From Dehalococcoidia bacterium (GTDB lineage: Bacteria > Chloroflexota > Dehalococcoidia > DSTF01 > JACRBR01): DNA of 54,697 nt. Numbering within the stretch: position 1 is the first letter of the stretch; every line of letters starts with the position of its first letter. Under the pieces are notes generated by a model. The model saw only the letters and a program-made list of their open reading frames with translations. It was not told the DNA's origin and made no database searches. The stretch spans positions 1 through 54,697 of the forward strand of contig JBBDXD010000002.1 of the NCBI GenBank assembly GCA_040902535.1. Direction: 5' to 3'. The position numbers and the translations under genes are program-made. This document shows positions 9,480-53,087 of the stretch, one piece after another.

Positions 9480-10592
9480 CTAGCTGTGTGCGGCGGCGGC
9501 GGTCGCGTTCAGCCGTTCGGTGACAGCGATGCACTCCTGCACCATGTCGAAGATCACGTCGCGCGCGGAGCGCACGCTGTTCATGCTGCCGACGATCTGA
9601 CCGACCGGTGTCGTCGCGAGATCGCGCGCCTGCTCGAAATGCCGCATCCGCACCTGCGCGTCGGCGGTCAGCATGTACTGCAGCGGCATCGGCAGCGTGC
9701 CGGGCGATTCGGGGCCGTCCCACGCGTCGGTCCACGCCGTGCGCAGTTGGCGCGCCGGCTTGCCGGTCATCGACCGCGATCGCACGGTGTCACGCGATGT
9801 CGCGCCCAGCATGCGGTCGACGAGGAAGTCCGCCGTATCGGATTCCTTCACCGTCAGCCAGATCGATCCGGTCCACACGCCCTCGGCGCCGAGCGCGAGC
9901 GCTGCCGCCATCTGGCGGCCGCTGCCGATGCCGCCGGCGGCGAGCACCGGCGTCGGGGCAACGGCGTCGACGACTTCCGGCACCAGGACCATTGACGCCA
10001 CCTCGCCGGTGTGGCCGCCGGCTTCGTAGCCCGACGCGACGATCACGTCGACGCCGGCTTCCTTCTGCTTGATCGCCTGCTGCGCGCTGCCTACCAGCGC
10101 CGCCACGACGACGCCCTGGCCGTGCGCCTTCTCCGTGACATCGGGCGGCGGCGGGCCGAGGGCGCTCGCGAGCAGCTTGATCGGATGCGACAGCGCGATA
10201 TCGACCTGCGGCCGCGCGTTGTCGTACGTCCAGCCGAGCAGCGCCATCGGCGCCGGTGCATCTTCGGGCATTTTGGGCACGCGGTGGCGGTCCATCACCG
10301 ACTCGACGAAGTCGCGATGCGCCTGCGGGATCATCGCCTGGAAGTCGGGCTCCTGCGCGCCTTCGCCGCCGACCGACGAGATCGGCATCACGACATCGAC
10401 CCCGTACGGCTTGCCGTCGACGTGCGCATCGATCCACTTCAGTTCGATCTCGAGTTGCTCAGGCGTGAACGCGAGCGCGCCGAGCACGCCGAGTCCGCCC
10501 GCGCGGCTCACCGCTGCGACAACATCGCGGCAGTGGCTGAACGCGAAGATCGGAAACTCAATGCTGAAGGTGTCGCAGATCCTGGTCCTCAT
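9480..10592 (-). CDS. Nitronate monooxygenase / 2-nitropropane dioxygenase-like flavoprotein
   Basis: A 370-residue FMN-dependent TIM-barrel protein of the NMO/FabK family. Visible are the N-terminal PIFAFSHCRDVVAAVSRAGGLGVLG, the flavin-binding YEAGGHTGEVAS and the phosphate-binding AAGGIGSGRQMAAALALGAEG. Family members oxidise nitronates or act as enoyl reductases or other flavin oxidoreductases, so the exact reaction cannot be read from sequence. AGGAG lies 6 nt before the ATG. It is the last gene of the catabolic operon, suggesting a redox step on the same substrate. Confidence 0.85.
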   Translation of the reverse strand: MRTRICDTFSIEFPIFAFSHCRDVVAAVSRAGGLGVLGALAFTPEQLEIELKWIDAHVDGKPYGVDVVMPISSVGGEGAQEPDFQAMIPQAHRDFVESVMDRHRVPKMPEDAPAPMALLGWTYDNARPQVDIALSHPIKLLASALGPPPPDVTEKAHGQGVVVAALVGSAQQAIKQKEAGVDVIVASGYEAGGHTGEVASMVLVPEVVDAVAPTPVLAAGGIGSGRQMAAALALGAEGVWTGSIWLTVKESDTADFLVDRMLGATSRDTVRSRSMTGKPARQLRTAWTDAWDGPESPGTLPMPLQYMLTADAQVRMRHFEQARDLATTPVGQIVGSMNSVRSARDVIFDMVQECIAVTERLNATAAAAHS

Positions 10593-10644: not shown

Positions 10645-11838
10645 TCAGTACGACCTTGGCAACCCCAGATTCCATTCGCACACGTAGTTCAGGATCATCT
10701 CGCGGCTGACAGGCGCCGTCTTCAGCAGCCGCGCGCCGTACCACAATTGCACGATTCCGAAGTCCTCGGTGAAGCCGTTGCCGCCGTGCGTCTCCAGCGC
10801 CGCATCGACCGCCTTGACGGCGAGGTCGGCGGCGAGGAACTTCGCCATGTTCGCCTGGGTGCCGACCTCCAGCGGGTTGCCGCCCTGATCCGACGCCCAC
10901 GCGGCGCGCATCATCATCAGCCGCGCCGCTTCGAGCTGGATCTTCACCTCCGCGAGCGGATGCGCGATCGACTGGTAGGCGCCGATCGGCGTGTCCTTGA
11001 ACACGCGCCGCTCCTTGGCGTACGCCACCGACTTCTCGAGGCACTGCTGCGACATGCCGTTGCAGATCGCCGCCGCGAGCACGCGCTCGCAGTTCAGCGA
11101 GTTGAACATCGCCTGCACGCCCTGCCCCTCCTGCCCGACGATCTGATCCGCAGGCGCTTCGACATCGTCGAAGAAAAGCTGCCACTGCGACTGCCCTTCG
11201 TTCGACGGCGTGTTGACGCGTGTCTTGGTCAGCCCGTTGGACTTCGTATCGACGAGAAAGATCGAGATGCCCTCGGACTTCGGGCGGCCTTCGCGCGCGA
11301 GTTCGTCGGCGGGCGTCGTGCGCGCGACGAGCAGCATGTAGTCGGCGTGCTCGACGCCCGTGATGAAGATTTTCTGACCGTTGATGCGATACACGTCACC
11401 GTCGCGGCGCGCGACCGTCTCGATCTTGAACGTGTTCGTGCCGGCGTTCGGCTCTGTGACGGCGAAGCAGAGCTTGCAGGAGCCATCAGCGACCTTCGGC
11501 AGGAAGCGGCGCTTTAGCTCTTCGGAGCCGTTCTTCGTGATGCAGGCGGAGTCCATCGCGGTCACGAGCATGAGTCCCGGCAGGAAGCCCTGCGACGTCA
11601 GTTCTTCGAAGCCGACGGTCAGCGGCTGCAGTCCCATGGCGTTGCCGCCGTACTCCTCCGGGATCAGGCAGCCGAGCAGCCCGATGCCTGCAATATCCTC
11701 CCAGAGTTCCTGCGGGAAGACCTGCTGCTTCATCATCTGGCGATATTCGTCGCGGCGCGGCGCGTATTTCTGCAGCATCGACCTGACGGACGTGCGGACG
11801 AGTTCGTGCTCTTCGTTAACGGCGAAGTTCAACGCCAT
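10645..11838 (-). CDS. Acyl-CoA dehydrogenase
   Basis: A 397-residue FAD-dependent acyl-CoA dehydrogenase of normal length. The family signature is seen in CFAVTEPNAGTNTFKIETVA and in the C-terminal ETHGGNGFTEDFGIVQLWYGARL, which includes the FAD-contacting GGNG segment. It introduces the alpha,beta double bond in an acyl-CoA, feeding the enoyl-CoA hydratase encoded upstream. TGGAG lies 8 nt before the ATG. A different heptamer array fills its 5' leader. The acyl chain or ring specificity cannot be told. Confidence 0.9.
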   Translation of the reverse strand: MALNFAVNEEHELVRTSVRSMLQKYAPRRDEYRQMMKQQVFPQELWEDIAGIGLLGCLIPEEYGGNAMGLQPLTVGFEELTSQGFLPGLMLVTAMDSACITKNGSEELKRRFLPKVADGSCKLCFAVTEPNAGTNTFKIETVARRDGDVYRINGQKIFITGVEHADYMLLVARTTPADELAREGRPKSEGISIFLVDTKSNGLTKTRVNTPSNEGQSQWQLFFDDVEAPADQIVGQEGQGVQAMFNSLNCERVLAAAICNGMSQQCLEKSVAYAKERRVFKDTPIGAYQSIAHPLAEVKIQLEAARLMMMRAAWASDQGGNPLEVGTQANMAKFLAADLAVKAVDAALETHGGNGFTEDFGIVQLWYGARLLKTAPVSREMILNYVCEWNLGLPRSY

Positions 11839-12259: not shown

Positions 12260-13075
12260 TCACCGCCCCTTGTACACCGGCTTGCGCTTCTCTTTGAACG
12301 CCTTCGGGCCTTCGCGGGCGTCCTCCGTCGCGTAGACCTGCATGCCGATCTTGAACTCCACGTCGAGCGCGTCCTGCTCGGCGAGGCACTCCGTGGCGAT
12401 CACGGACTCCTTGATCTTCTGCACCGCGACGGGCCCGTTCGACGCGACGCGTTGCGCGACCTGCTTCGCGTGCGCGAGCGCTTCGCCCTTCGGCACGACG
12501 CGGCCAATCAGCCCGAAGCTCAGCGCTTCCGCCGCGGGGTACATGTCGCCGGTAAGCAGCATCTCCATCGCCTTGGTGTACGGGATCTGGCGCCGCAGAC
12601 GGATCGTCGAACCGCCCTGCGGGAACAGCGCCCACTTCACCTCCGTGACGCCGAACACCGACCCTTCGCCGGCGATGCGGATGTCCGTCGACTGCAGCAC
12701 TTCGGTGCCGCCGGCGACGCAGTAGCCTTCGATCGCCGCGATCAGGGGCTTCTTGAGCTGCCGCGACCGCAGCAGCCCCTGGAAGATCACGTTCGGGTCC
12801 TCGCGGCAGCGGCGCTCGAAGTCATCCTCCGGCGGCAGTTGCGCCAGCGAGCGGGACACCAGCTTGTCGAGGTCCGCGCCGGCGCAGAAATCCGCACCGG
12901 CGCCCGTGAGGATCGCGCATCGCACCTCCACGTCGCTGTCGATCATCTCCCACGCGTCGGCGAGGCGGCAGAGCATCTCCATGTTGATGCTGTTCTTCAC
13001 CTCGGGCCGGTTCATCGTCAGGGTGACGACGTGGCCTTCGCGGTCTACGATGAGGGCTGGTTCGATCGCGTTCAT
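12260..13075 (-). CDS. Enoyl-CoA hydratase/isomerase family protein
   Basis: A 271-residue crotonase-fold protein. The oxyanion-hole segments are ILTGAGADFCAGADLDKL and AAIEGYCVAGGTEVLQSTDIR, and a glutamate at the hydratase position is kept in VFGVTEVKWALFPQGGST. It probably hydrates the enoyl-CoA made by the neighbouring acyl-CoA dehydrogenase, preparing a 3-hydroxyacyl-CoA for aldol cleavage. ATG 13075 overlaps the stop of the preceding small gene (ATGA) and is preferred to the in-frame GTG two codons upstream. Confidence 0.88.
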   Translation of the reverse strand: MNAIEPALIVDREGHVVTLTMNRPEVKNSINMEMLCRLADAWEMIDSDVEVRCAILTGAGADFCAGADLDKLVSRSLAQLPPEDDFERRCREDPNVIFQGLLRSRQLKKPLIAAIEGYCVAGGTEVLQSTDIRIAGEGSVFGVTEVKWALFPQGGSTIRLRRQIPYTKAMEMLLTGDMYPAAEALSFGLIGRVVPKGEALAHAKQVAQRVASNGPVAVQKIKESVIATECLAEQDALDVEFKIGMQVYATEDAREGPKAFKEKRKPVYKGR

Positions 13076-13278
13076 GTCCACTCCAGATCGACGGTCTGGG
13101 CACCTTCTCGCGTGATGCAGAACGTCGAGCGTTTGAGCCCTTTCGGGGCTTCTCGTTCAATATGTTCGAGCTGCTCGAACGTGACCGTGAAGTACGGCAG
13201 ATCGAGCATCTGTTTGGCATTGCCGCGGGGGAGTCCGGCGAGCTGGTAGTGCATCCGCACTCTGTTCTCGCCCACCAT
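13072..13278 (-). CDS. Small conserved-looking protein of unknown function
   Basis: A 68-residue protein starting MVGENRVRMHYQLAGLPRG and ending GAQTVDLEWT, with the stop overlapping the enoyl-CoA hydratase start (ATGA). The tight coupling makes it a real operon member. The frame is open 51 codons further upstream, but that extension is built from a dispersed repeat (it reads RVILSAAKNL, a known repeat-derived peptide), so the short start with the upstream AGGGGAG is preferred. No catalytic motif is visible; it may be an accessory subunit. Confidence 0.5.
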   Translation of the reverse strand: MVGENRVRMHYQLAGLPRGNAKQMLDLPYFTVTFEQLEHIEREAPKGLKRSTFCITREGAQTVDLEWT

Positions 13279-13347
13279 GATCTCCCCTACGAAGCGGTAC
13301 TCCGGTTGCTCTCCCACAGCCCTCGTTTTAGCGCTGCGTTTCGTGAT

Positions 13348-13374
13348 GAGATTCTCGACGCTGTTCAGAATGGC
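13348..13374. repeat. Dispersed repeat, degenerate copy
   Basis: This 27-bp copy is a diverged version of the element at 13393-13419: both begin GAGATTCT and contain TTCAGAATG or CTCAGAATG near the end. It lies in the gap between the acyl-CoA ligase and the small gene. Confidence 0.7.
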
Positions 13375-13392
13375 GCTTGTGCGTTCCACGAC

Positions 13393-13419
13393 GAGATTCT
13401 TCGCTGCGCTCAGAATGAC
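13393..13419. repeat. Dispersed repeat of the ILSAAKNL type
   Basis: The sequence GAGATTCTTCGCTGCGCTCA plus GAATGAC matches the widespread short repeat that, read on the other strand, translates as ILSAAKNL and is often misannotated as protein N-termini. It lies just downstream of the acyl-CoA ligase stop. Confidence 0.8.
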
Positions 13420-13434
13420 CCTGTTGGACATTCG

Positions 13435-15039
13435 TTACCTCGAACGTGCCGGCGGTTCGCCCATTGCCGTCGCCTTCGCCCACCGATAATCGGCCTTGCC
13501 GCTCGGCGAGCGCACGACTTCATCGACGAGGTGCAACTCTCGCGGCACCTTGTAGCCCGACACGTGCGTGCGGCAATGCGCGTCGATCTCCTCCAGCGTG
13601 AGCGCGTGGCCTTGGCGCGGCTGTACCACCGCCGCGACGCGTTCGCCCCAGCGCTCGTCAGGCACGCCGACGACCACCGCATCGAACACGGCGGGATGCG
13701 CCTTGAGCGCCGCCTCCACTTCTTCCGGGTAGATCTTCTCGCCGCCGCTGTTGATACAGATCGAGCCGCGGCCGAGCAACGTCACTGTCCCGTCGGCGTC
13801 GATGGTCGCCATGTCGCCGGGGATCACCCACCGGACGCCGTCCGCGTCGGTCATGAAGGTTGCGGCCGTCTTCGTCTCGTCCTTGTAGTAGCCAAGCGGC
13901 ATGCGGCCGCGACGCGCGAGCCGCCCGACGATGCCCGATCCCGCCGCGACCGGTCGCAGATCGTCATCGATCACCGCCGTGTTCGGGTCGACGGTGAAGC
14001 GTGGCCCGGGTGAGCCTGCCGTGGCGATGCCCATGCCCTGGTGGCCCGTCTCCGACACGCCGTAGGCGTCGACGAGCAGAATGTTCGGCATGTGCTGCCG
14101 CAATTGCTGCTTCACCGCCTCCGACCAGATCGCGCCGCCCGACGAGATTACGAACGCCGACGATACATCGTAATCACGTTCGTTCAGCGCTTCAGCGAGC
14201 GGGCGCGCCATCGCATCGCCGACGATCGAGAGGACGTTGATCTTCTCCCGCTCGACGAGCGACCAGATCGCGTGCGCATCGAACTTCGGGTGGAGCACGA
14301 CCTTGCCGCCGCCAAGCAGCCCGATCATGCACGACCAGAAGCCGTTGCCGTGCATCAGCGGCGCCACCGGGATCATCGTCGGGCCTTCGCGTGACGCGAC
14401 GATCTCGCCGATCTGCTCCGGCCGCTCGATCGGCGCGCCGCCGACGTTGCCGCCCTGCAGGCCGCCGAAAAACACGTCTTCCTGCCGCCACATCACGCCC
14501 TTCGGCATGCCCGTCGTGCCGCCCGTGTAGATCAGGTACAGGTCATCGCCGGATCGCTCGCCGAAATCTTGCAGGTCCGACTCTTCGGCAAGCGTCGATT
14601 CGTAGTCGATCGCGTTCAGTCCCGAAGGATCCGCACCGCTCCGGTCATCGACCTGCACGAACGTCCGCAGCATCGGCGTCGAAGGGGCGACGGCGGCAAG
14701 CCGCGGCGCGAACTCGCGGCTGTACACGACGCCGGTCAGGTCCGCGTCGGTGAAGAGATAGCGCAACTCTTCCTCGACGTAGCGAAAGTTGATGTTCACG
14801 GGCACGGCGCGGATCTTGTACGCCGCCAGCGCCGCCTCGACGTACTCCGTGCCGTTGTACAGGTAGAGGCCGATGTGGTAGCCCTGCTTGACGCCGGCAT
14901 CGAGCAGCATGTGCGCCGCGCGGTTGGCGCGCTCGTCGAGTTGCTTGAAGGTGAGGCGCCGGTCGCCGCAGACGAGCGCAAGGCGATCGGGCACCGTCTT
15001 CGCCACGCACTCGAAGAGGTCGGCCAGGTTGTACTGCAT
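13435..15039 (-). CDS. AMP-forming acyl-CoA synthetase (acyl-CoA ligase)
   Basis: A 534-residue ANL-superfamily adenylate-forming enzyme of usual length. The P-loop motif is LIYTGGTTGMPKGVMW, the aromatic motif region is VDAYGVSETGHQG, and the C-terminal hinge and CoA-side motif is GRGSICINSGGEKIYPEEVEAAL with the catalytic lysine region near the end (SPSGKADYRW). It activates a carboxylic acid to its CoA thioester with ATP. GGAGGAGG precedes the ATG. It lies directly after the two thiolase-like genes, so it probably activates the operon's substrate or a side-chain acid. Confidence 0.92.
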   Translation of the reverse strand: MQYNLADLFECVAKTVPDRLALVCGDRRLTFKQLDERANRAAHMLLDAGVKQGYHIGLYLYNGTEYVEAALAAYKIRAVPVNINFRYVEEELRYLFTDADLTGVVYSREFAPRLAAVAPSTPMLRTFVQVDDRSGADPSGLNAIDYESTLAEESDLQDFGERSGDDLYLIYTGGTTGMPKGVMWRQEDVFFGGLQGGNVGGAPIERPEQIGEIVASREGPTMIPVAPLMHGNGFWSCMIGLLGGGKVVLHPKFDAHAIWSLVEREKINVLSIVGDAMARPLAEALNERDYDVSSAFVISSGGAIWSEAVKQQLRQHMPNILLVDAYGVSETGHQGMGIATAGSPGPRFTVDPNTAVIDDDLRPVAAGSGIVGRLARRGRMPLGYYKDETKTAATFMTDADGVRWVIPGDMATIDADGTVTLLGRGSICINSGGEKIYPEEVEAALKAHPAVFDAVVVGVPDERWGERVAAVVQPRQGHALTLEEIDAHCRTHVSGYKVPRELHLVDEVVRSPSGKADYRWAKATAMGEPPARSR

Positions 15040-15060: not shown

Positions 15061-16218
15061 CTACGGCTTTTCGCTGCTCACGATCCACATCGCGAAGAAC
15101 TGCGAGCCGCCGCCGTACGCGTGCCCCAGCGCGACGCGCGCGCCATCGACCTGGTGCTCGCCCGCCTGACCGCGCACCTGCATCGCCGCCTCGGCGAATC
15201 GCAGCATGCCCGACGCGCCGATCGGGTTCGACGACAGCACGCCGCCCGACGGGTTCACCGGCAAATCGCCGTCGAACGCCGTCACGCCGTCTGCCGTCAT
15301 CTTCCAGCCTTCGCCGAGCGGCGCGAATCCAAGGTTCTCCATCCACATCGGCTCGAACCACGAGAACGGCACGTAGATCTCCGCGACGTCGATCTCGCGG
15401 CGCGGGTCGGTCATGCCGGCCTGCTTGTAGAGTGCGGCCGCGCAGTCGCGCCCGGCGCGCGGATTGACCTGATCGCGCCCCGCGAACATCGTCGGTTCGC
15501 TGCGCATCGCGTTCGCGACGACCCACGCGGGCTTCGTGCTGCCGCGGGACGCGTTTTTCTCGTCGGTCAGCACCATCGCGCACGCGCCGTCCGACGCGGG
15601 GCACGTCTCCAGGAACCGGATCGGGTCCCAGAGCATCGGCGATTGCGCCACCTGCTCGAGATTGATGTCCGCCTGCTGCAAATGCGCGTACTGGTTGCGG
15701 CAGGCGTTGAGCCGGTCCTTCACGGCCACCATCATGCCGATGTGCGCCGGCGCGCCCGACCGCGCGATGTAGGCGCGAATGTGCGGCGCGAAGTAGCCGC
15801 CGGCGCCGGCGATCGTCGCGGGCTGGAACGGGATCTTCGGCGAGAGCGCCCACATCGTGTCGCTTTCGGACTGCTTTTCGAACGCCACCGTCAGCACGCG
15901 TTCGTGCACGCCCGCCTGCACCAGCGACGCGGCGACGAGCGCCGTCGAGCCGCCGACGCTGCCCGCGGTGTGCACGCGCATCATCGGCTTGCCGACGGCA
16001 CCGAGCGCATCGGCCAGATACAGCTCGGGCATCATCAGCCCTTCGAACATGTCCGGCGCCTTGCCGATGACGACCGCGTCGATGTCGCTCCACGTCATCT
16101 GGGCGTCTTCAAGCGCACGCAGGGCGGCTTCGCGCACGAGCCCGGCGATCGATACGTCGGCGCGCTTCGACGCGTGCTTCGTCTGGCCGATCCCGGCGAC
16201 GGCGCAGCGATTCGCCAT
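15061..16218 (-). CDS. Thiolase-superfamily protein without catalytic Cys (SCP-x/Ltp2-like)
   Basis: A 385-residue thiolase-fold protein of SCP-x-like length. It keeps the family's C-terminal motifs (PVNPSGGVLSSNPIGASG and VALGHAYGGGSQ). In the N-terminal half, where thiolases have the nucleophilic Cys before GSTAL, it reads HTAGSVGGSTAL; the Cys aligns with Ser87. It cannot use the normal acyl-Cys mechanism. Cys-less relatives such as Ltp2 act with a DUF35 partner as retro-aldolases in steroid side-chain removal. Two DUF35 genes lie in the same operon, so that role is inferred. Start and stop overlap the neighbouring thiolase-like gene (TGATG). Confidence 0.85.
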   Translation of the reverse strand: MANRCAVAGIGQTKHASKRADVSIAGLVREAALRALEDAQMTWSDIDAVVIGKAPDMFEGLMMPELYLADALGAVGKPMMRVHTAGSVGGSTALVAASLVQAGVHERVLTVAFEKQSESDTMWALSPKIPFQPATIAGAGGYFAPHIRAYIARSGAPAHIGMMVAVKDRLNACRNQYAHLQQADINLEQVAQSPMLWDPIRFLETCPASDGACAMVLTDEKNASRGSTKPAWVVANAMRSEPTMFAGRDQVNPRAGRDCAAALYKQAGMTDPRREIDVAEIYVPFSWFEPMWMENLGFAPLGEGWKMTADGVTAFDGDLPVNPSGGVLSSNPIGASGMLRFAEAAMQVRGQAGEHQVDGARVALGHAYGGGSQFFAMWIVSSEKP

Positions 16219-17273
16219 CAGTCGGCCTCCAGCACGCAGACGAGGTTCTGCTGCAGGCACGGGCCGGACGTCGCGTGCGCGACCGCGCTCCTGGCGTCGC
16301 CATCGATGATGCGCTGCGCCGCCTCGCCAATGCGGATGAGTCCTGCGGCCATGAGCGGATTCGCCGCGAGCGCGCCCCCGGACGGGTTGATCGCGGTGGC
16401 GCCGTTCAGGCCGATCGCGTCGCGCAGGATGATCTCCTGGTGCGTGAAGGGCGCGTACAGCTCCGCGACGTCGAACGCGCGGCCGGTCGCGCCCGCTTCT
16501 TGCGCCGCCAGCGCCGTCGAAGGCGACTGCGTGAGATCGCGCATGCCGGGATGGTGCGCTTCGATGCGATGGTCGATGCCGCGGATCCACGCCGGCCGCT
16601 TCGAGATGCGCCGCGCGAGATCGCCCGCCGCAAGCACGACCGCCGCAGCGCCGTCGGTGATCGGCGCGCAGTCATGCTTGCGCAGCGGGGACGCAATGCA
16701 TGGTGCGGCGAGCAGCGCGTCGGCGTCGAAATCACCGGCGAGCTGCGCATTCGCGTTGGTCTTCGCATCGCGGCGGCTGCGGACGGCGATGCCGGCCATG
16801 TCGCGTTCGCTGCAGGCGCCGGCGTCGAGCATTGCCCGTGCCTGCAACGCCGCCATCGCGATCGAGTCGGGCCACAACGGCTGCATGCAGTACGGGTCGA
16901 GCTGCATCGTCATCACGTCGCGGACGTCGCCGAGCGATGACTTGCCGAATCCGTAGACCAGCGCCGAGTCGATGTCGCCGTGTTGCAGGCGCACCCACGC
17001 TTCGTACAACGCCCAGGCGCCGTCCATCTCGACGTGCGACTCTTCGATCGGCGGCCAGGGGCCGACAGCGTCGAGCGTCGTGACGAATGCGAAGGGCTGC
17101 CCGGCGAGAAAGTCGCTGCTGCCCGAGCACGTGAATCCGACCTCGCCCTTTTTGAGGCCCGATCGCTCCATCGCTTCGCGGACGACCGGCATCACGATCT
17201 CGACTTCGTTGCGGAACGCGTCGCGTCGTACGTTCGGCGCCTGCGCGAATCCCACCACCGCGACCTCGCGCAT
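16218..17273 (-). CDS. Thiolase-superfamily protein without catalytic Cys
   Basis: A 351-residue second thiolase-like protein, clearly different from its neighbour. The nucleophile region reads SHVEMDGAWALYEAWV, with no cysteine within 20 residues. It keeps the C-terminal AINPSGGALAANPLMAAG and ends SGPCLQQNLVCVLEAD, a tail typical of non-decarboxylating SCP-x-like relatives. It probably forms a heteromer with the thiolase-like protein downstream and with one or both DUF35 proteins upstream. The start is ATG 17273 in a TGATG overlap, or the in-frame GTG immediately before it (17276). Confidence 0.82.
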   Translation of the reverse strand: MREVAVVGFAQAPNVRRDAFRNEVEIVMPVVREAMERSGLKKGEVGFTCSGSSDFLAGQPFAFVTTLDAVGPWPPIEESHVEMDGAWALYEAWVRLQHGDIDSALVYGFGKSSLGDVRDVMTMQLDPYCMQPLWPDSIAMAALQARAMLDAGACSERDMAGIAVRSRRDAKTNANAQLAGDFDADALLAAPCIASPLRKHDCAPITDGAAAVVLAAGDLARRISKRPAWIRGIDHRIEAHHPGMRDLTQSPSTALAAQEAGATGRAFDVAELYAPFTHQEIILRDAIGLNGATAINPSGGALAANPLMAAGLIRIGEAAQRIIDGDARSAVAHATSGPCLQQNLVCVLEAD

Positions 17274-17770
17274 CACAGGTGCTCCTTGTACGCGTCGAAC
17301 GGCGCGTCCGGCTCACCCGTCGGGCGGAAGTAGCGGATGCTGTCCATCGTCGCCGCGCGCTCGGCGGGCGGCGCCCACACTGCTTCGACGCGCATGCCCA
17401 TGCGCACGTCTTCGGCGTCCACTTCCTGCAGCAGGTGAAACAACGGGATGTCGGCGCCATCGAGCAGTACCGAGGCCGATGCGTACGGCGGCCGCACCGC
17501 CTGCCCCGCAAACGGCACGTTGACGATGCAGAAGCTCGTGACGATGCCCCTGCCAGAGAGTTCGATCTCTTCGTCCGTCGGCACCGCGCACGTCGGGCAG
17601 CCTCCCTTCGGGGGCACGTACACCTTGCGGCACGAAGGACAGCGCTCGCCGACGATCCGCCCATCCGCAATGCCCCGGAGAAAACGCGAGGTCGCCTGCC
17701 CGGCGATGAACGTGTACTCGAGCCGTATCGGCGACACGAAGGCGTAGATGATCTCGCTCTCCGCGCTCAC
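17273..17770 (-). CDS. DUF35 OB-fold protein with rubredoxin-like zinc ribbon
   Basis: A 165-residue protein with the two-part DUF35 layout: a zinc ribbon with Cys44, Cys47, Cys58 and Cys61 (CPSCRKVYVPPKGGCPTC), then an OB-fold (GIVTSFCIVNVPFAGQAVRPPY, LDGADIPLFHLL). DUF35 proteins bind acyl-CoA and pair with thiolase-superfamily enzymes, as in steroid retro-aldolases and archaeal acetyl-CoA/HMG-CoA condensing complexes. It starts at GTG in a GTGA overlap with the other DUF35 gene and its stop overlaps the thiolase-like gene, so the partners are made from adjacent coupled cistrons. Confidence 0.88.
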   Translation of the reverse strand: MSAESEIIYAFVSPIRLEYTFIAGQATSRFLRGIADGRIVGERCPSCRKVYVPPKGGCPTCAVPTDEEIELSGRGIVTSFCIVNVPFAGQAVRPPYASASVLLDGADIPLFHLLQEVDAEDVRMGMRVEAVWAPPAERAATMDSIRYFRPTGEPDAPFDAYKEHL

Positions 17771-18207
17771 GGAGCCTCCGGTTCGAAGCAGACGATGTCC
17801 GTGATCGCGCCTACGGTCTCGTCGCGCCAGAGCGCACGCACGCGCATGCCGGTGCGCATCGACGCCTCCTCGCCGCTATCGACGGCGTGCAGCATCGAGG
17901 TATCAGCGCCGTCGATGCGGATCAGCGCGAAGGCGAACGGATGCGCCAGCGGATGGTTACGTCTGGGCTCGGCGATCCACGTCCACGATGTCACGACGCC
18001 GCAGTCCGTGAGTTTGACCAACTCCGATAGCGCGTCACCGGTGACCGGGTCGTATTCGATCGGCGGCACGAGCACGCGTCCATCCGGCGCGCGCACGCCG
18101 CGAATGCGGCGATCGCGCAGCCCCGCGAGAAACCGCCCGATCACCGGGCCCACGCTGCGGTGGTACGGGTATTCGAGCACATGCTGGGCGGCGAGCGGTT
18201 CGTTCAT
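17767..18207 (-). CDS. DUF35 OB-fold protein with degenerate zinc ribbon
   Basis: A 146-residue DUF35 relative. The linker helix (GPVIGRFLAGLRDRRIRGVRAPDGRVLVPP) and OB-fold (CGVVTSWTWIAEPRRNHPLAHPFAF, IDGADTSMLHAVD) are recognisable, but all four zinc-ribbon cysteines are replaced, so this copy should not bind zinc. Its neighbour has an intact ribbon, giving one metallated and one non-metallated subunit. ATG 18207 is preferred over the GTG two codons upstream. It follows the amidohydrolase gene after a ~100-bp gap holding two hairpins, and overlaps the next gene by 4 bp. Confidence 0.82.
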   Translation of the reverse strand: MNEPLAAQHVLEYPYHRSVGPVIGRFLAGLRDRRIRGVRAPDGRVLVPPIEYDPVTGDALSELVKLTDCGVVTSWTWIAEPRRNHPLAHPFAFALIRIDGADTSMLHAVDSGEEASMRTGMRVRALWRDETVGAITDIVCFEPEAP

Positions 18208-18236
18208 CGTCACTCTCGCCCCCGCGAGAGAATCGA

Positions 18237-18288: not shown

Positions 18289-18311
18289 GCGATGGTTGGC
18301 CGTACCATCGC
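18289..18311. repeat. Inverted repeat / hairpin at amidohydrolase stop
   Basis: Arms GCGATGGT and ACCATCGC pair perfectly over 8 bp with a 7-nt loop. The hairpin overlaps the end of the amidohydrolase gene and precedes the hairpin at 18237-18270 in the direction of transcription. Confidence 0.6.
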
Positions 18312-19156
18312 TACGCGTGACGCGCGGAAACAGCCGCCTCGGCGGGCGCTTCCGCGCGGAAGAACAACCGTTGCGCGTTCGCGTAGAGGAACTTGTCGAG
18401 CACGCCTTCCCGCAGGTCGAGTTGCTCGGCTTCCCTCATGCAACGCTCGAACGAAAGTACCGGGTAATCCGTCGCGAACATGATCTTGTCCTGACCGCGC
18501 GTGTTCATGAAATGAATGAGTTGCGGCGGAAAATATCGCGGCGCGTACGCCGACGTCTGCATATACAGGTTGCGGTACTTGATCATCAGCCGTATCGCGA
18601 CGTCCCACCATGGGTCCGCGCCGTGCGCCATCACGAGCTTCAACTCGGGAAAGAAGACGCACACTTCGTCCAGGTGCATAGGGTCCTGGCACTTTCCGGG
18701 CATCGGCGGCCCCGGCAGACCGGTGTTGATGGCGATCGGCAAATCAAGGTCGATGCATTTTGCGTATATCGGGTAGTACACGCGGTCGTCCGGCGGCAGG
18801 TTGATCATGAACGGCGTGATGCGCGCCAACACGACCGGCTCGCTGCGCACCAGGCTTTCGAGCGCCCGCAACTCGCTCATGCCGCGGCGTGGATCGAGCG
18901 ACAACGACAGCACGAAGCGGTCAGGGTGCCGCTCCGGAAACGCCAGCACCCGCGGATCAGGCTGCTCGGCGTTCGTGGTGATGATGCACTTCCCTACGCC
19001 GCAGCGGTCCATGTCGTCGATGAGCTGTTCGACGGAGATGTCCTTGAAGATCTCGGCGCTGCGGTCGAAGTAGTCCTCGGCGACGCGCACGAGCCACTCC
19101 GGGCGCTCAATCGAGCCCATGTTGACGTTGACGAAGGTATCGATGGCGCGCGGCAT
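18311..19156 (-). CDS. Amidohydrolase family 2 (ACMSD-like) protein, altered metal motif
   Basis: A 281-residue TIM-barrel protein of the Amidohydro_2 family, which includes decarboxylases and hydrolases of aromatic and ring-cleavage acids. Family marks are KLVMAHGADPWWD, the MQTSAYAPRY region and DKIMFATDYPVLSFERCM near the C-terminus. The usual N-terminal HxH metal motif after ID is replaced: the protein starts MPRAIDTFVNVNMG, with Asn10 and Asn12 where the histidines belong. The barrel may hold metal differently, or this member may do another job. AAGGAGG lies before the ATG. It follows the Rieske oxygenase gene by 10 bp. Confidence 0.82.
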   Translation of the reverse strand: MPRAIDTFVNVNMGSIERPEWLVRVAEDYFDRSAEIFKDISVEQLIDDMDRCGVGKCIITTNAEQPDPRVLAFPERHPDRFVLSLSLDPRRGMSELRALESLVRSEPVVLARITPFMINLPPDDRVYYPIYAKCIDLDLPIAINTGLPGPPMPGKCQDPMHLDEVCVFFPELKLVMAHGADPWWDVAIRLMIKYRNLYMQTSAYAPRYFPPQLIHFMNTRGQDKIMFATDYPVLSFERCMREAEQLDLREGVLDKFLYANAQRLFFRAEAPAEAAVSARHA

Positions 19157-19166
19157 AGGTCCCTCC

Positions 19167-20174
19167 TTATTCGCTCGCGCCGTTCGCCGGCTCGCCGACG
19201 TAGAACTGCTTCGCCCACCGGCGGAAGATGCCGATCGGGCCGTCGCCGTCGCAAAGCATCGGCGGCGTCTTCATCACCTTGTGCTCCCAGATCGGAATGT
19301 CCTGCCCCAACTGGCGCTCGATCTCGGCGATGAACGCCTTGGCCACGTTCTGCGTCATCGTTTCGTTGCCGACGCGCTTCGTCGTGAACGAAAAGCGCAC
19401 GTCGACGTACTCGCCGTCGATCGGCGTCACGGAGGAGATCAACAGCGTCTCGACGATCCCGGTGAAGCGCACCAGGCTGAACCCGAATCCGTACGAATCG
19501 GATGCGATCTGCCCTTCGACATCGCCCTGCGGCGTCGTGTACTGGACGGGTGAGCGCACGCGGAACATGTGGCCGTCGATCTCGGCGCGCGTCTTCGGCT
19601 GTTCCGGCGTGCCGTGTACGTACTTGAAGTGCGCTGAGTCGACCGCGTTTTCCGCCATCTCCTGGTTATGCGTACGCACCTTCCAGCGCCGCCGCACATA
19701 CGGCGTCCAGGCGTCGGAGTTGTACTCGCTGAGCTTCGGAAGCTCCCACCCCGGCTCGCCGCCGGCGATGTGGTGGTGCACCATGATCAGCCCGTTCGCC
19801 TCGAACACCGGCCACGCCCGCAGTTTCGCCTGCGACGGGATCTTCTCGGCATACGGGATCTCGACACACTGTCCCGCGCCGTCGAAGCGCCACGCGTGGA
19901 ACGGGCAGCGGATGCAGTTGCCTTCGACCACGCCGCCGTACCCCAGGTGCGCACCCAGGTGCGGGCAGAACGCATCGAGCACCTGCGCCGTGCCGTTGGC
20001 GTCGCGGAACAAGACCAGGTGCTCGCCGAAATACTGGAGCGGCATCACACGGCCAACATCGAGTTCGTCGCTGTACGCCACCTGGAACCATCCCGTCGGA
20101 AACGGCGGGATCGGGAAACGATATCCCTCCGGCACGGTAAACATCTCTGTGCGGCTCTCCGCGGTCATGGTCAT
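19167..20174 (-). CDS. Rieske non-heme iron oxygenase, KshA/sterol-desaturase-like
   Basis: A 335-residue oxygenase alpha subunit. The Rieske [2Fe-2S] ligands are Cys70, His72, Cys90 and His93 (CPHLGAH, CIRCPFHAWRF). The mononuclear iron site is seen in ENAVDSAHFKYVHG, with His182 and His187 and the bridging Asp179. The stretch CPFHAWRFDGAGQC followed by PYAEKIPSQAKLRAWPV resembles 3-ketosteroid 9-alpha-hydroxylase KshA and cholesterol 7-desaturases more than benzoate-type dioxygenases. No reductase or ferredoxin gene is in the window. ATG 20174 overlaps the TetR stop (ATGA). Confidence 0.88.
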   Translation of the reverse strand: MTMTAESRTEMFTVPEGYRFPIPPFPTGWFQVAYSDELDVGRVMPLQYFGEHLVLFRDANGTAQVLDAFCPHLGAHLGYGGVVEGNCIRCPFHAWRFDGAGQCVEIPYAEKIPSQAKLRAWPVFEANGLIMVHHHIAGGEPGWELPKLSEYNSDAWTPYVRRRWKVRTHNQEMAENAVDSAHFKYVHGTPEQPKTRAEIDGHMFRVRSPVQYTTPQGDVEGQIASDSYGFGFSLVRFTGIVETLLISSVTPIDGEYVDVRFSFTTKRVGNETMTQNVAKAFIAEIERQLGQDIPIWEHKVMKTPPMLCDGDGPIGIFRRWAKQFYVGEPANGASE

Positions 20175-20842
20175 GCGAGCCCTCCCTTCAGCGCGGCGCC
20201 ATCGGGGTCGCGCTCCGGCAGCAACTGCCGAAAAATCTGGTCGACGAGGTGATTGCGCCGCGCGATCAGCGCGTCGATGGAGAAGGGGTCGCCCGGCTTC
20301 AGCCGCTCCAAGAGCGGCCGGTGGCAAAAGTAGCCGATGAGCTGCACGTGCAGATCGTGGATGAAGAGCGCGGGGTCGATCCGCCGGATCAGCCCTGTCT
20401 CGATGGCGCGCTGCAGGCTGTTGAGTGCGGGCAAATAGATCGGTTCGACGAAGCGCTTCAGGTACGCCTCGGTGTTCGCCGAATCCAGCAGTTCGCGCGC
20501 CAGCAGCCGCGCCAGCGAGGGGTGCTCGACGAAAAACGTCTGCTGCTGGTCGATGAGATACGCCACGCGCTCGCGCTTGAAGCCGCCGCTCATGAACTCA
20601 CGCATGCCCTCGGCCAGTTGCCCCAGGGCCGCATCCAGCACTGCCTCGTAGAGCAGTTCCTTCGTCTCGAAGTGGTAGAGCACCGTGGTCTTGTGCGTGC
20701 CCGCGGCGTCCGCGATCTCCTGCACCGACACGGCGCCGAATCCGCGGTCGGCGAACAGTTCGGTGGCGGCATCCAGGATCGCTTGCCGCCGGTCGGCGCG
20801 TCGCGGCCTGTCCTGACCAACTAGGGGTGCTTTTCCGACCAT
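20171..20842 (-). CDS. TetR/AcrR-family transcriptional regulator
   Basis: A 223-residue regulator. The N-terminal helix-turn-helix is RRADRRQAILDAATELFADRG followed by VQEIADAAGTHKTTVLYHFETKELLYEAV; the helical C-terminal ligand domain follows. It is the first gene of the catabolic operon and is coupled to the Rieske gene by an ATGA overlap, so it probably senses the substrate or its CoA ester and represses its own operon. ATG 20842 (MVGKAPLVGQ) is preferred to an upstream start. Inverted-repeat arms near the start (20837-20846, 20882-20892) could be its operator. Confidence 0.9.
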   Translation of the reverse strand: MVGKAPLVGQDRPRRADRRQAILDAATELFADRGFGAVSVQEIADAAGTHKTTVLYHFETKELLYEAVLDAALGQLAEGMREFMSGGFKRERVAYLIDQQQTFFVEHPSLARLLARELLDSANTEAYLKRFVEPIYLPALNSLQRAIETGLIRRIDPALFIHDLHVQLIGYFCHRPLLERLKPGDPFSIDALIARRNHLVDQIFRQLLPERDPDGAALKGGLA

Positions 20843-20892
20843 TTGGTGAGTATGCGCCCGTCCCAGCTTCGGTGTCAACGGCCAAACTGGTC
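20837..20892. promoter_or_regulatory. Candidate TetR operator (spaced inverted repeat)
   Basis: GACCATTTGG at 20837-20846 and CCAAACTGGTC at 20882-20892 are inverted copies differing by one inserted base. They flank the region where the promoter of the TetR-led operon should lie; the inner arm covers the chosen start codon. The divergent kinase gene starts 70 bp away, so both could be affected. Confidence 0.35.
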
Positions 20893-50855: not shown

Positions 50856-51025
50856 CCTTCAAGCTCCTGATCTTCCCAGTTCGTGGCTGACGCGATGAAA
50901 TCACACGTGGCCGGGCATCTCCCAAGCGCTTCATGGCACTTTCGCCAAAATCGAGCGGCGAAGCCGGAAAGAATTTGGGTTGCCCCGCGGCCGATATCGG
51001 AGAGCCAATACTTTGCACGTCGAGT

Positions 51026-51071
51026 CAACTGCTGGACTTGCGATGTCGTATATTGTGAGTCCGGCAGTTTG
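51026..51071. promoter_or_regulatory. Candidate AbiEi operator (inverted repeat) with -10-like box
   Basis: CAACTGCTGGACT (51026-51038) and AGTCCGGCAGTTTG (51058-51071) are near-perfect inverted arms 19 bp apart. Between them is TATATT (51049-51054), a good -10 box; no clear -35 box is seen. The site lies 17 bp before the AbiEi start, where AbiE systems are known to be autorepressed by the antitoxin through inverted repeats. Confidence 0.6.
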
Positions 51072-51087
51072 CACGGGGAGTAAACAA

Positions 51088-51912
51088 ATGGACTCGGGAT
51101 ATTCAAGCTCTGCGGGAATCTCAGGCGCGACAAGGAGCGAACTCGCGGCCGTGACGGGGCGCGGGCATAGGCTCATCGGCGTTGCGGACGCGGTCAATGC
51201 TCTCGGGATCGACGCTCAGGCTGCGGCCATGAAACTGGCACGCTGGGCCGATCAGGGGTGGCTCCGGCGGGTCCGTCGCGGCATGTATATCCCGGTGCCG
51301 GTGGACGCGGAAAACCCGAAAGCTTGGACCGAAGACGCGCTCATCATTGCTACCGCGATCTGGTCTCCCTGTTACTTCACGGGCTGGACTGCGGCGAATC
51401 ATTGGGGTCTGTCCGAGCAGGTCTTCCGCACGGTCGTGCTCAAGACAACTGCCCGGGTGAGGGCCAGCCGCGCCGAGATGCTGGACCACGAGTACCTCGT
51501 CGCGCACACCGACAAACGCCATCTGAGTTGGGGCATGGAGTCCGCGTGGCAGGACGGAGTGCGGCTCAACTATGCCGACCCGACGCGCACGGTCGTCGAA
51601 ATTCTCGACGCACCGCGCCTCGCTGGAGGGATACGCCACGCAGCGGAGATCCTCGGCGCGTATCTTGGTGATCATGATCCCGATCGGCTCATCGACTATG
51701 GCGATCGCTTGGGGAATCGCACGGTGTTCAAGCGTCTGGGTTACCTCACCGAGGCGATCGGAGCTGAACAGCCCAGCCTGATCGAAGCATGCCGGCACCG
51801 GCTATCCGCAGGTGTGTCCCTGCTCGACCCTGACGGCCCGCGTGGTGGCCTGCGCGTACCTGAGTGGAACCTCCGAGCCAACGTCCATGTGTCTGAGACG
51901 AACCCGTCGTGA
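51088..51912 (+). CDS. abiEi: AbiEi-family type IV antitoxin / transcriptional repressor
   Basis: A 274-residue protein. The N-terminal winged helix is around HRLIGVADAVNALGIDAQAAAMKLARWADQGWLRRVRRGMYIPV, the recognisable AbiEi_4-type start that ends in RRGMYIP. The C-terminal antitoxin domain follows (YFTGWTAANHWGLSEQVFRTVVLKTT, YADPTRTVVEILDAP). AbiEi neutralises AbiEii without tight binding and represses its own promoter. GGGGAG before ATG 51088 sets the start; longer frames upstream run through the operator. It overlaps the toxin gene by 4 bp (GTGA). Confidence 0.88.
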   Translation: MDSGYSSSAGISGATRSELAAVTGRGHRLIGVADAVNALGIDAQAAAMKLARWADQGWLRRVRRGMYIPVPVDAENPKAWTEDALIIATAIWSPCYFTGWTAANHWGLSEQVFRTVVLKTTARVRASRAEMLDHEYLVAHTDKRHLSWGMESAWQDGVRLNYADPTRTVVEILDAPRLAGGIRHAAEILGAYLGDHDPDRLIDYGDRLGNRTVFKRLGYLTEAIGAEQPSLIEACRHRLSAGVSLLDPDGPRGGLRVPEWNLRANVHVSETNPS

Positions 51913-53087
51913 TTCCGTGGCGCGAGATCCTCGCGCTGCGCTCCGAGTGGCAGCTCGATGCCAACGTCATCGAGAAGGACTACGCGCTCGGATGGCTTCT
52001 CGCCGGCATCGCCCATGACGATGACCTGTCCGAGACCTGGGTGTTCAAGGGCGGCACTTGCCTCAGGAAGTGCTACTTCGAGACATACCGGCTCTCGGAG
52101 GATCTCGACTTCACGGTCACAGACGATGGACCGGAGACACCTGAAGAACTCACACCGATCTTCACCCGTATCGCCGAGTGGATGCGCCGCGAGTCCGGGA
52201 TCGAAATCGTCGTCGAGGACGGCTCATTCGTCCGTCAACGCAATCGTCGCGGCCATCCGACGACGCAGGGCCGCCTGACGTATCGTGGACCGAACCCACC
52301 CGCGCAGCCACCGAAGGTCAAGATCGACATCACGGGCGACGAGTTGTTGGTGGAGGCGCCGGAGATCCGGCCGATCGTGCATCCGTACAGCGACGCGCCA
52401 CTGCCCGTAAACGGCGTCCGTTGTTACACGCTCACCGAGCTGTGCGGCGAGAAGCTCCGAACGCTCGCCGAGCGCTGCCGACCTCGCGACCTCTACGACG
52501 TGGTGCACATGAGCCGACATCCTGACCTTCTCGATCAGCCGACCGCGATCGCGGAAGTCCTCGCACGCAAGTGCGAATTCGTCGGTATCTCAGTACCTGA
52601 CCTGGCTTCGATCCAAGCTTCACCCTTCCGGGAGGAGATCGCGCGTGAATGGGGGAACATGCTCGGGCATCAGCTGCCGCGCCCCCTCCCACCGTTCGCT
52701 GACTTCTGGGGCACGCTCGACGACGTGTTCGCCTGGCTCGCCGGAGAGGCGCATGTCATGCCACTGCCGCGGGCCGAGCTGGGACAGCTCGACGATACAT
52801 GGATTGCACCGCGCGAGATGACCTCTTGGCGCGGCGGAGCACCGCTCGAACTTGTCCGTTACGCCGGCGCCAACAAAATGAAGGTTGAGATCGACTATCG
52901 CGCAGAAGAGGGACTGCGCGGTCCGCGCACGGTCGAACCGTACTCGTTGAGGCGAACGCAGGACGGCAACCTCCTGCTGTTCGTCGTCAACGATCGCAAC
53001 CAACTACGAGTCTATCGTGTAGACCGGATCGCCGCGGTTCGGCCGACCGGCGATTCGTTCGTGCCGAGGTTCCTTGTCGAATTCTAG
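51909..53087 (+). CDS. abiEii: AbiEii-family nucleotidyltransferase toxin with C-terminal WYL-like domain
   Basis: A 392-residue protein. Residues 1-~290 are the AbiEii nucleotidyltransferase: VFKGGTCLRKCYFETYRLSEDLDFT has the GGT and R-x-S-x-D-x-D signature (Asp65, Asp67), and GEKLRTLAERCRPRDLYDVVHM is the conserved helix with Lys and Arg-Asp. The usual family length is ~290-300. Here ~90 more residues follow, reading VEIDYRAEEG, RTVEPYSLRRTQDGNLLLFV and RVYRVDRIAAVRPTGDSFV, which fit a WYL domain. Translation starts at GTG inside the antitoxin stop. The enzyme is expected to stop growth by nucleotide transfer, perhaps to tRNA. Confidence 0.88.
   Translation: MIPWREILALRSEWQLDANVIEKDYALGWLLAGIAHDDDLSETWVFKGGTCLRKCYFETYRLSEDLDFTVTDDGPETPEELTPIFTRIAEWMRRESGIEIVVEDGSFVRQRNRRGHPTTQGRLTYRGPNPPAQPPKVKIDITGDELLVEAPEIRPIVHPYSDAPLPVNGVRCYTLTELCGEKLRTLAERCRPRDLYDVVHMSRHPDLLDQPTAIAEVLARKCEFVGISVPDLASIQASPFREEIAREWGNMLGHQLPRPLPPFADFWGTLDDVFAWLAGEAHVMPLPRAELGQLDDTWIAPREMTSWRGGAPLELVRYAGANKMKVEIDYRAEEGLRGPRTVEPYSLRRTQDGNLLLFVVNDRNQLRVYRVDRIAAVRPTGDSFVPRFLVEF

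Follow-up and report, generated by a model that had tools for sequence, protein, structure and literature searches.

Two Cys-less thiolase-like proteins with two unequal DUF35 partners in a Dehalococcoidia bacterium form an Ltp3-Ltp4-type gene set

A review describes Ltp3-Ltp4 as a heteromeric aldol-lyase that cuts C24-C25 of the campesterol and sitosterol side chains (PMC6678751), and the corresponding genes have been given as ltp4 (Rv3522) and ltp3 (Rv3523), together with fadD19 (Rv3515c) and echA19 (Rv3516), Rv3521 being listed just before (PMC6429209). Here we describe four genes encoding two thiolase-like proteins (LtpA and LtpB) and two DUF35 proteins (DUF35n and DUF35z) in a Dehalococcoidia bacterium (assembly GCA_040902535.1), located within a 54,697 bp stretch of contig JBBDXD010000002.1 that was analysed at its full length (hereafter the window). 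On the side of the known system, Rv3521 is presumably itself a double DUF35 protein, and the aldol-lyase description of Ltp3-Ltp4 reportedly goes back to a mutant study, Wilbrink 2012, as cited in PMC6273163 and PMC8708139. The four-gene set is the ltp4-ltp3 arrangement (Rv3521-Rv3523), and since such a doubled set has been described before, as Ltp3-Ltp4 plus a double DUF35 protein, it is largely known and not a new system. What had looked like an odd set of genes is hereby settled as an Ltp3-Ltp4 system, which extends well past Actinobacteria into Chloroflexota and Myxococcota, and the refinement over the known system concerns which of the two large subunits is the likely catalyst.

The four genes all lie on the minus strand (18213-15061), with neighbours overlapping by 1-4 bases:

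17767..18213, minus strand: DUF35n, zinc-less DUF35 protein that has just the OB-fold and heads the four-gene set (PF01796 at 38.7 bits, without zf-ChsH2); the start is likely the ATG at 18207
17273..17770, minus strand: DUF35z, zinc ribbon plus OB-fold with Cys44/47/58/61 (PF12172 and PF01796 above cut-off)
16218..17276, minus strand: LtpA, Ltp4/Rv3522-type thiolase-like subunit of 352 residues with Glu at the nucleophile position; the start is likely the ATG at 17273
15061..16218, minus strand: LtpB, Ltp3/Rv3523-type thiolase-like subunit of 385 residues with Gly at the nucleophile position and Tyr282

Residues of LtpA are numbered from the GTG at 17276, and the likely ATG start would shift these numbers down by one. 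The original prediction, made from the letters of the window, was right to place four overlapping genes here, to describe both thiolase-fold proteins as lacking the nucleophilic Cys, and to tell apart one DUF35 protein with a four-Cys ribbon and one without.

Both large subunits scored well above the cut-offs of curated families, LtpA with 556 bits against NF005924/PRK07937 (cut-off 419) and LtpB with 697 bits against NF006180/PRK08313 (cut-off 514). The same two families are found together at a locus of Rhodococcus rhodnii (L119; 602 bits for the PRK07937 family and 716 bits for the PRK08313 family), where both DUF35s reside in one 313-residue protein, the first half of which is 57% identical to DUF35n and the second half 51% identical to DUF35z. 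This locus also carries an EchA19 equivalog above cut-off (437 vs 400 bits), and the FadD beside it matches PRK07798 (787 bits), the same model as the FadD of the window. The EchA19-like protein of the window scored 337 bits against the EchA19 equivalog model (model cut-off 400).

A contig scan for LtpA relatives yielded at least 586 confirmed relatives, and the best 80 of these came from Chloroflexota, Actinomycetota and Deltaproteobacteria/Myxococcota. Synteny was counted over the 65 loci long enough to hold the complete set. LtpB adjoins LtpA in all 65, while both DUF35 forms are present in 64/65 and are fused to each other in 14/65. The four-gene set is therefore not a chance arrangement, as it recurs in 64 of the 65 complete loci, which span Chloroflexota, Actinomycetota and Myxococcota. 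Fusions of the LtpA and LtpB genes were looked for and none was found. The LtpB family is rare in the phylum of the window, exceeding its cut-off in 3 of 400 sampled genomes.

When aligned with Cys thiolases, the nucleophilic-Cys column holds Gly86 in every LtpB sequence (75/75) and Glu83 in every LtpA sequence (84/84), and the His of the GHP motif is lost as well (Asn331 in LtpB, Asn306 in LtpA). Characterised relatives use the Tyr of their YDHF/YDCY motif as catalytic base, namely Tyr294 in TcLtp2 and Tyr302 in CtSal (PMC12329534). Both residues align with Tyr282 of LtpB, which is invariant (75/75). At the same column Tyr is missing in 81 of the 84 LtpA sequences, the residues present being His (68), Ser (10), Tyr (3), Cys (2) and Leu (1). 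Nine sampled A/B pairs (of LtpA-like and LtpB-like proteins) from other Dehalococcoidia all have Tyr in the B member and none in the A member (9/9). With the Tyr retained in LtpB and the B members and missing from most LtpA and from the A members, LtpB probably acts as the aldolase, and LtpA as a partner subunit.

We assessed the relationship of the two subunits to other thiolase-like proteins in a tree of 66 rows with a limited outgroup sample. LtpA and LtpB each form a clade with 100/100 support, LtpA joins other A-type proteins (98/91), LtpB joins other B-type proteins (98/80), and the 43 A/B rows all fall in a single Cys-less clade (100/100), apart from Ltp2/Sal and the Cys thiolases. Neither subunit lies inside a Cys-dependent thiolase clade, the placement that a phylogenetic check proposed with the original prediction was meant to detect. 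The topology fits an origin of the A and B subunits in a single ancient duplication, after which they would have been inherited together; the exact duplication order is not settled, because three rows, two of A-type and one of B-type, fall in neither subclade. Predicted models of LtpA (pLDDT, the predicted local distance difference test score, 90.5) and LtpB (90.6) both have the thiolase fold, with Z scores to 6esq_A of 45.5 (344 aligned residues) and 53.2 (375 aligned), respectively, and a root-mean-square deviation of 1.9 in each case. A sequence search found no close solved structure for either protein.

Two other assignments were rejected. The tree and the motif columns ruled out that the proteins belong to a Cys-thiolase clade in which the Cys has been displaced, and the scores, the second catalytic residue and the tree ruled out membership of Ltp2 or Sal: LtpB reached 135 bits against NF005892/PRK07855 (cut-off 469), which we take to be the Ltp2 model, and Cys304 of Sal aligns with Pro284 of LtpB.

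DUF35z of the window has both zf-ChsH2 and OB_ChsH2_C domains, and DUF35n has the OB domain only, with no Cys in the ribbon region. Among 73 DUF35n sequences this region has at most one Cys in every case, and no Cys ribbon occurs in any. The ribbon Cys of DUF35z (n = 82) number four in 46 sequences, three in 17 and fewer in 19, of which seven have none. With four Cys in only 46/82, zinc was rejected as indispensable to the set, and even DUF35z, judging from these residue counts, has no strict requirement for it. Related A/B pairs mostly have four Cys in both DUF35s, which rules out that the DUF35s of such pairs generally differ in zinc content. Since those pairs mostly keep all four, the zinc-less DUF35n, which is a conserved trait, appears to be restricted to the LtpA/LtpB lineage.

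We therefore regard it as probable that the four genes encode a heteromeric, coenzyme A (CoA)-dependent retro-aldolase of the Ltp3-Ltp4 type, composed of an LtpA-LtpB dimer and the DUF35 proteins, with LtpB as the active subunit and a beta-branched acyl-CoA as substrate. LtpA and LtpB would form a thiolase-fold dimer, each half of which probably bears one DUF35 (the zinc-less DUF35n or the zinc-bearing DUF35z), giving a pseudo-symmetric version of the Sal-ShyDUF35 and Ltp2-ChsH2DUF35 heterotetramers. With a tertiary beta-hydroxyacyl-CoA bound, Tyr282 of LtpB would deprotonate its beta-hydroxyl group, after which cleavage of the C-C bond would give a ketone and a short acyl-CoA; LtpA, having lost the Tyr base, would act as partner subunit. 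The preceding steps would be provided from the operon by the CoA ligase, acyl-CoA dehydrogenase and crotonase, from which we infer that the module takes off a beta-branched end, as found in C24-branched sterol side chains, beyond the reach of ordinary beta-oxidation. The roles proposed from sequence, with LtpB as the active subunit, LtpA as its partner and zinc dispensable in one of the DUF35s, are concrete and testable.

The genes around the four-gene set are as follows:

20171..20878, minus strand: TetR-family regulator (PF00440), first gene of the run
19167..20174, minus strand: Rieske oxygenase with a KshA-type C-terminal domain (PF19298 at 142 bits, and PF00355), ATG at 20174
18311..19156, minus strand: amidohydrolase family 2 protein (PF04909), upstream of the four genes
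13435..15039, minus strand: acyl-CoA synthetase, FadD19-type (PRK07798; 759 bits, cut-off 543)
12260..13081, minus strand: enoyl-CoA hydratase, EchA19-like crotonase (PRK07799; 357 bits, cut-off 316)
10645..11838, minus strand: acyl-CoA dehydrogenase (PF00441, PF02771, PF02770)
9480..10592, minus strand: nitronate-monooxygenase-like flavoprotein (PF03060 at 167 bits), probable last gene of the run

On the minus strand the run thus reads TetR regulator, Rieske oxygenase, amidohydrolase, DUF35n, DUF35z, LtpA, LtpB, FadD19-type synthetase, a small protein, EchA19-like crotonase, acyl-CoA dehydrogenase and nitronate-monooxygenase-like flavoprotein. Between the FadD and crotonase genes, a 119-residue open reading frame (ORF) at 13072-13431 (minus strand) has no Pfam match. 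A TetR gene adjoins the four-gene set at three further loci (L028, L030 and L031), and an amidohydrolase gene is near it in 7/65 loci. Elsewhere in the window, a single ORF at 51909-53087 (plus strand) encodes an AbiEii-type nucleotidyltransferase with a WYL domain after it and adjoins an ORF at 50980-51912, and the two are possibly a toxin-antitoxin pair.

Several findings weigh against an LtpB-catalysed cleavage of sterol side chains. For the substrate, two markers of ring degradation were not found, as no protein of the genome was above cut-off for HsaA, and the 2,3-dihydroxybiphenyl dioxygenase model had no match in the genome (other sterol-ring markers, KstD among them, were not searched for). 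For the division of labour between subunits, LtpA of the window has Tyr274 at the Tyr-base column, one of three such cases in 84, and the LtpA elbow loop and C-terminal His334 are conserved as strongly as those of LtpB. For the chemistry, the second catalytic Tyr of Ltp2 (Tyr344) lies within the GHP motif, at which LtpB carries Asn331 in 75/75 sequences.

The first of these concerns leaves sterol as a growth substrate unproven, given no HsaA above cut-off and no dihydroxybiphenyl dioxygenase match, and Ltp2 likewise had no genome protein above cut-off. An enzyme of the same class could instead act on an acyl-CoA that is a branched terpenoid, alkyl or hydroxylated one, a possibility that overlaps with the Ltp3-Ltp4-type retro-aldolase proposed above, differs from it in substrate only, and deserves some, if lesser, credence. 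Against it, the upstream Rieske protein carries a C-terminal domain of the KshA type, with no other KshA_C protein found in the genome, and the FadD19/EchA19-type genes nearby correspond to those of the Rhodococcus locus. The genome also encodes five P450s. On balance of this genome content, a sterol substrate in this Dehalococcoidia host would be plausible.

The conservation of LtpA bears on a second alternative. Besides Glu83, its invariant residues are Ser80, His81, Asp85, Tyr91, Glu92 and His334, of which Asp85 and His334 stay invariant even when distant A-type proteins are included, and the elbow loop ESHVEMDGAW is invariant or nearly so. A structural subunit need not keep such features, so the conserved elbow and His334 weigh against a purely structural LtpA, and a role beyond scaffolding is possible in view of the near-invariant elbow. 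LtpA could then be a second catalyst, with the invariant Glu as base or acid and two linked reactions, e.g. hydration and retro-aldol cleavage. We consider this unlikely, however, as LtpA does not conserve the Tyr base, the operon already has a crotonase for hydration, and the HVEMDGAW elbow is not kept in the A-type partners of related pairs.

Two separate retro-aldolases, each with its own DUF35 and cutting two C-C bonds in succession, would account for the two thiolase-like proteins with two DUF35s and for Tyr274 of the window LtpA, but are very improbable given the loss of Tyr from nearly all LtpA sequences and the DUF35n-DUF35z fusions, which argue for a single complex. The successive cleavages raised by the original prediction are accordingly not supported, as only one of the two subunits, LtpB, conserves the catalytic Tyr; the other parts of that prediction, Cys-less, DUF35-partnered retro-aldolase chemistry on a thiolase fold and a heteromeric complex, are supported.

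Further Cys-less thiolase-like proteins were observed. Loci L033-L041 in other genomes of the same class have more adjacent pairs with one or two DUF35 genes; these are ~31-41% identical to LtpA/LtpB, and their A members lack the Tyr and have an elbow loop of reduced length. The genome of the window itself encodes a single such protein with a Sal-like YDCY motif, placed beside the Ltp2 clade (L003, C6:35 kb), and two with YDSF/YDAF motifs (L001, C22:198 kb; L002, C3:138 kb), which group with PDB 4u4e of Sphaerobacter and have DUF35 genes nearby.

As a tentative proposal, held with less than even confidence, LtpA/LtpB may be the best-known branch of an ancient group of obligate A/B Cys-less thiolase heteromers that arose by one duplication, in which one subunit kept the Tyr and the other was rebuilt (here with an invariant acidic elbow and a distinct catalytic or substrate-gating role), with further branches across Dehalococcoidia. 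Should the A/B family be a single ancient heteromer, it would illustrate well how a homodimeric enzyme can become an active/inactive pair.

Compared with the closest described enzymes, BbsAB benzoylsuccinyl-CoA thiolase (7PXP) and archaeal acetoacetyl-CoA thiolase (6ESQ) share the thiolase fold and a DUF35 zinc-finger partner, but BbsB retains both the Cys nucleophile and the His of the GHP motif and occupies a separate tree branch. The Sal-Shy(DUF35) bile-acid aldolase (PDB 9MYR) is, like LtpB, Cys-less with Gly at the nucleophile column, a Tyr base and a DUF35 partner, whereas its acid is Cys304 (YDCY; Pro284 in LtpB), it has one kind of thiolase-like subunit, and its DUF35 is fused to a MaoC hydratase. 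The Ltp2-ChsH2(DUF35) retro-aldolase (PDB 6OK1) also has a thiolase fold without the Cys, with Gly in the nucleophile column and Tyr in the YDHF column, and a DUF35 partner; it differs in combining a single type of thiolase-like subunit with a single DUF35, in its second catalytic Tyr344, which LtpB lacks, and in belonging to a separate clade. The Ltp3-Ltp4/Rv3521 system of Rhodococcus and Mycobacterium has the same curated families, gene order, pair of zinc-less and zinc DUF35s, and FadD19/EchA19-type neighbours. The set described here differs from it in that the DUF35s are separate genes, the EchA19-like protein is below the EchA19 equivalog cut-off, and the host is a member of the Dehalococcoidia.

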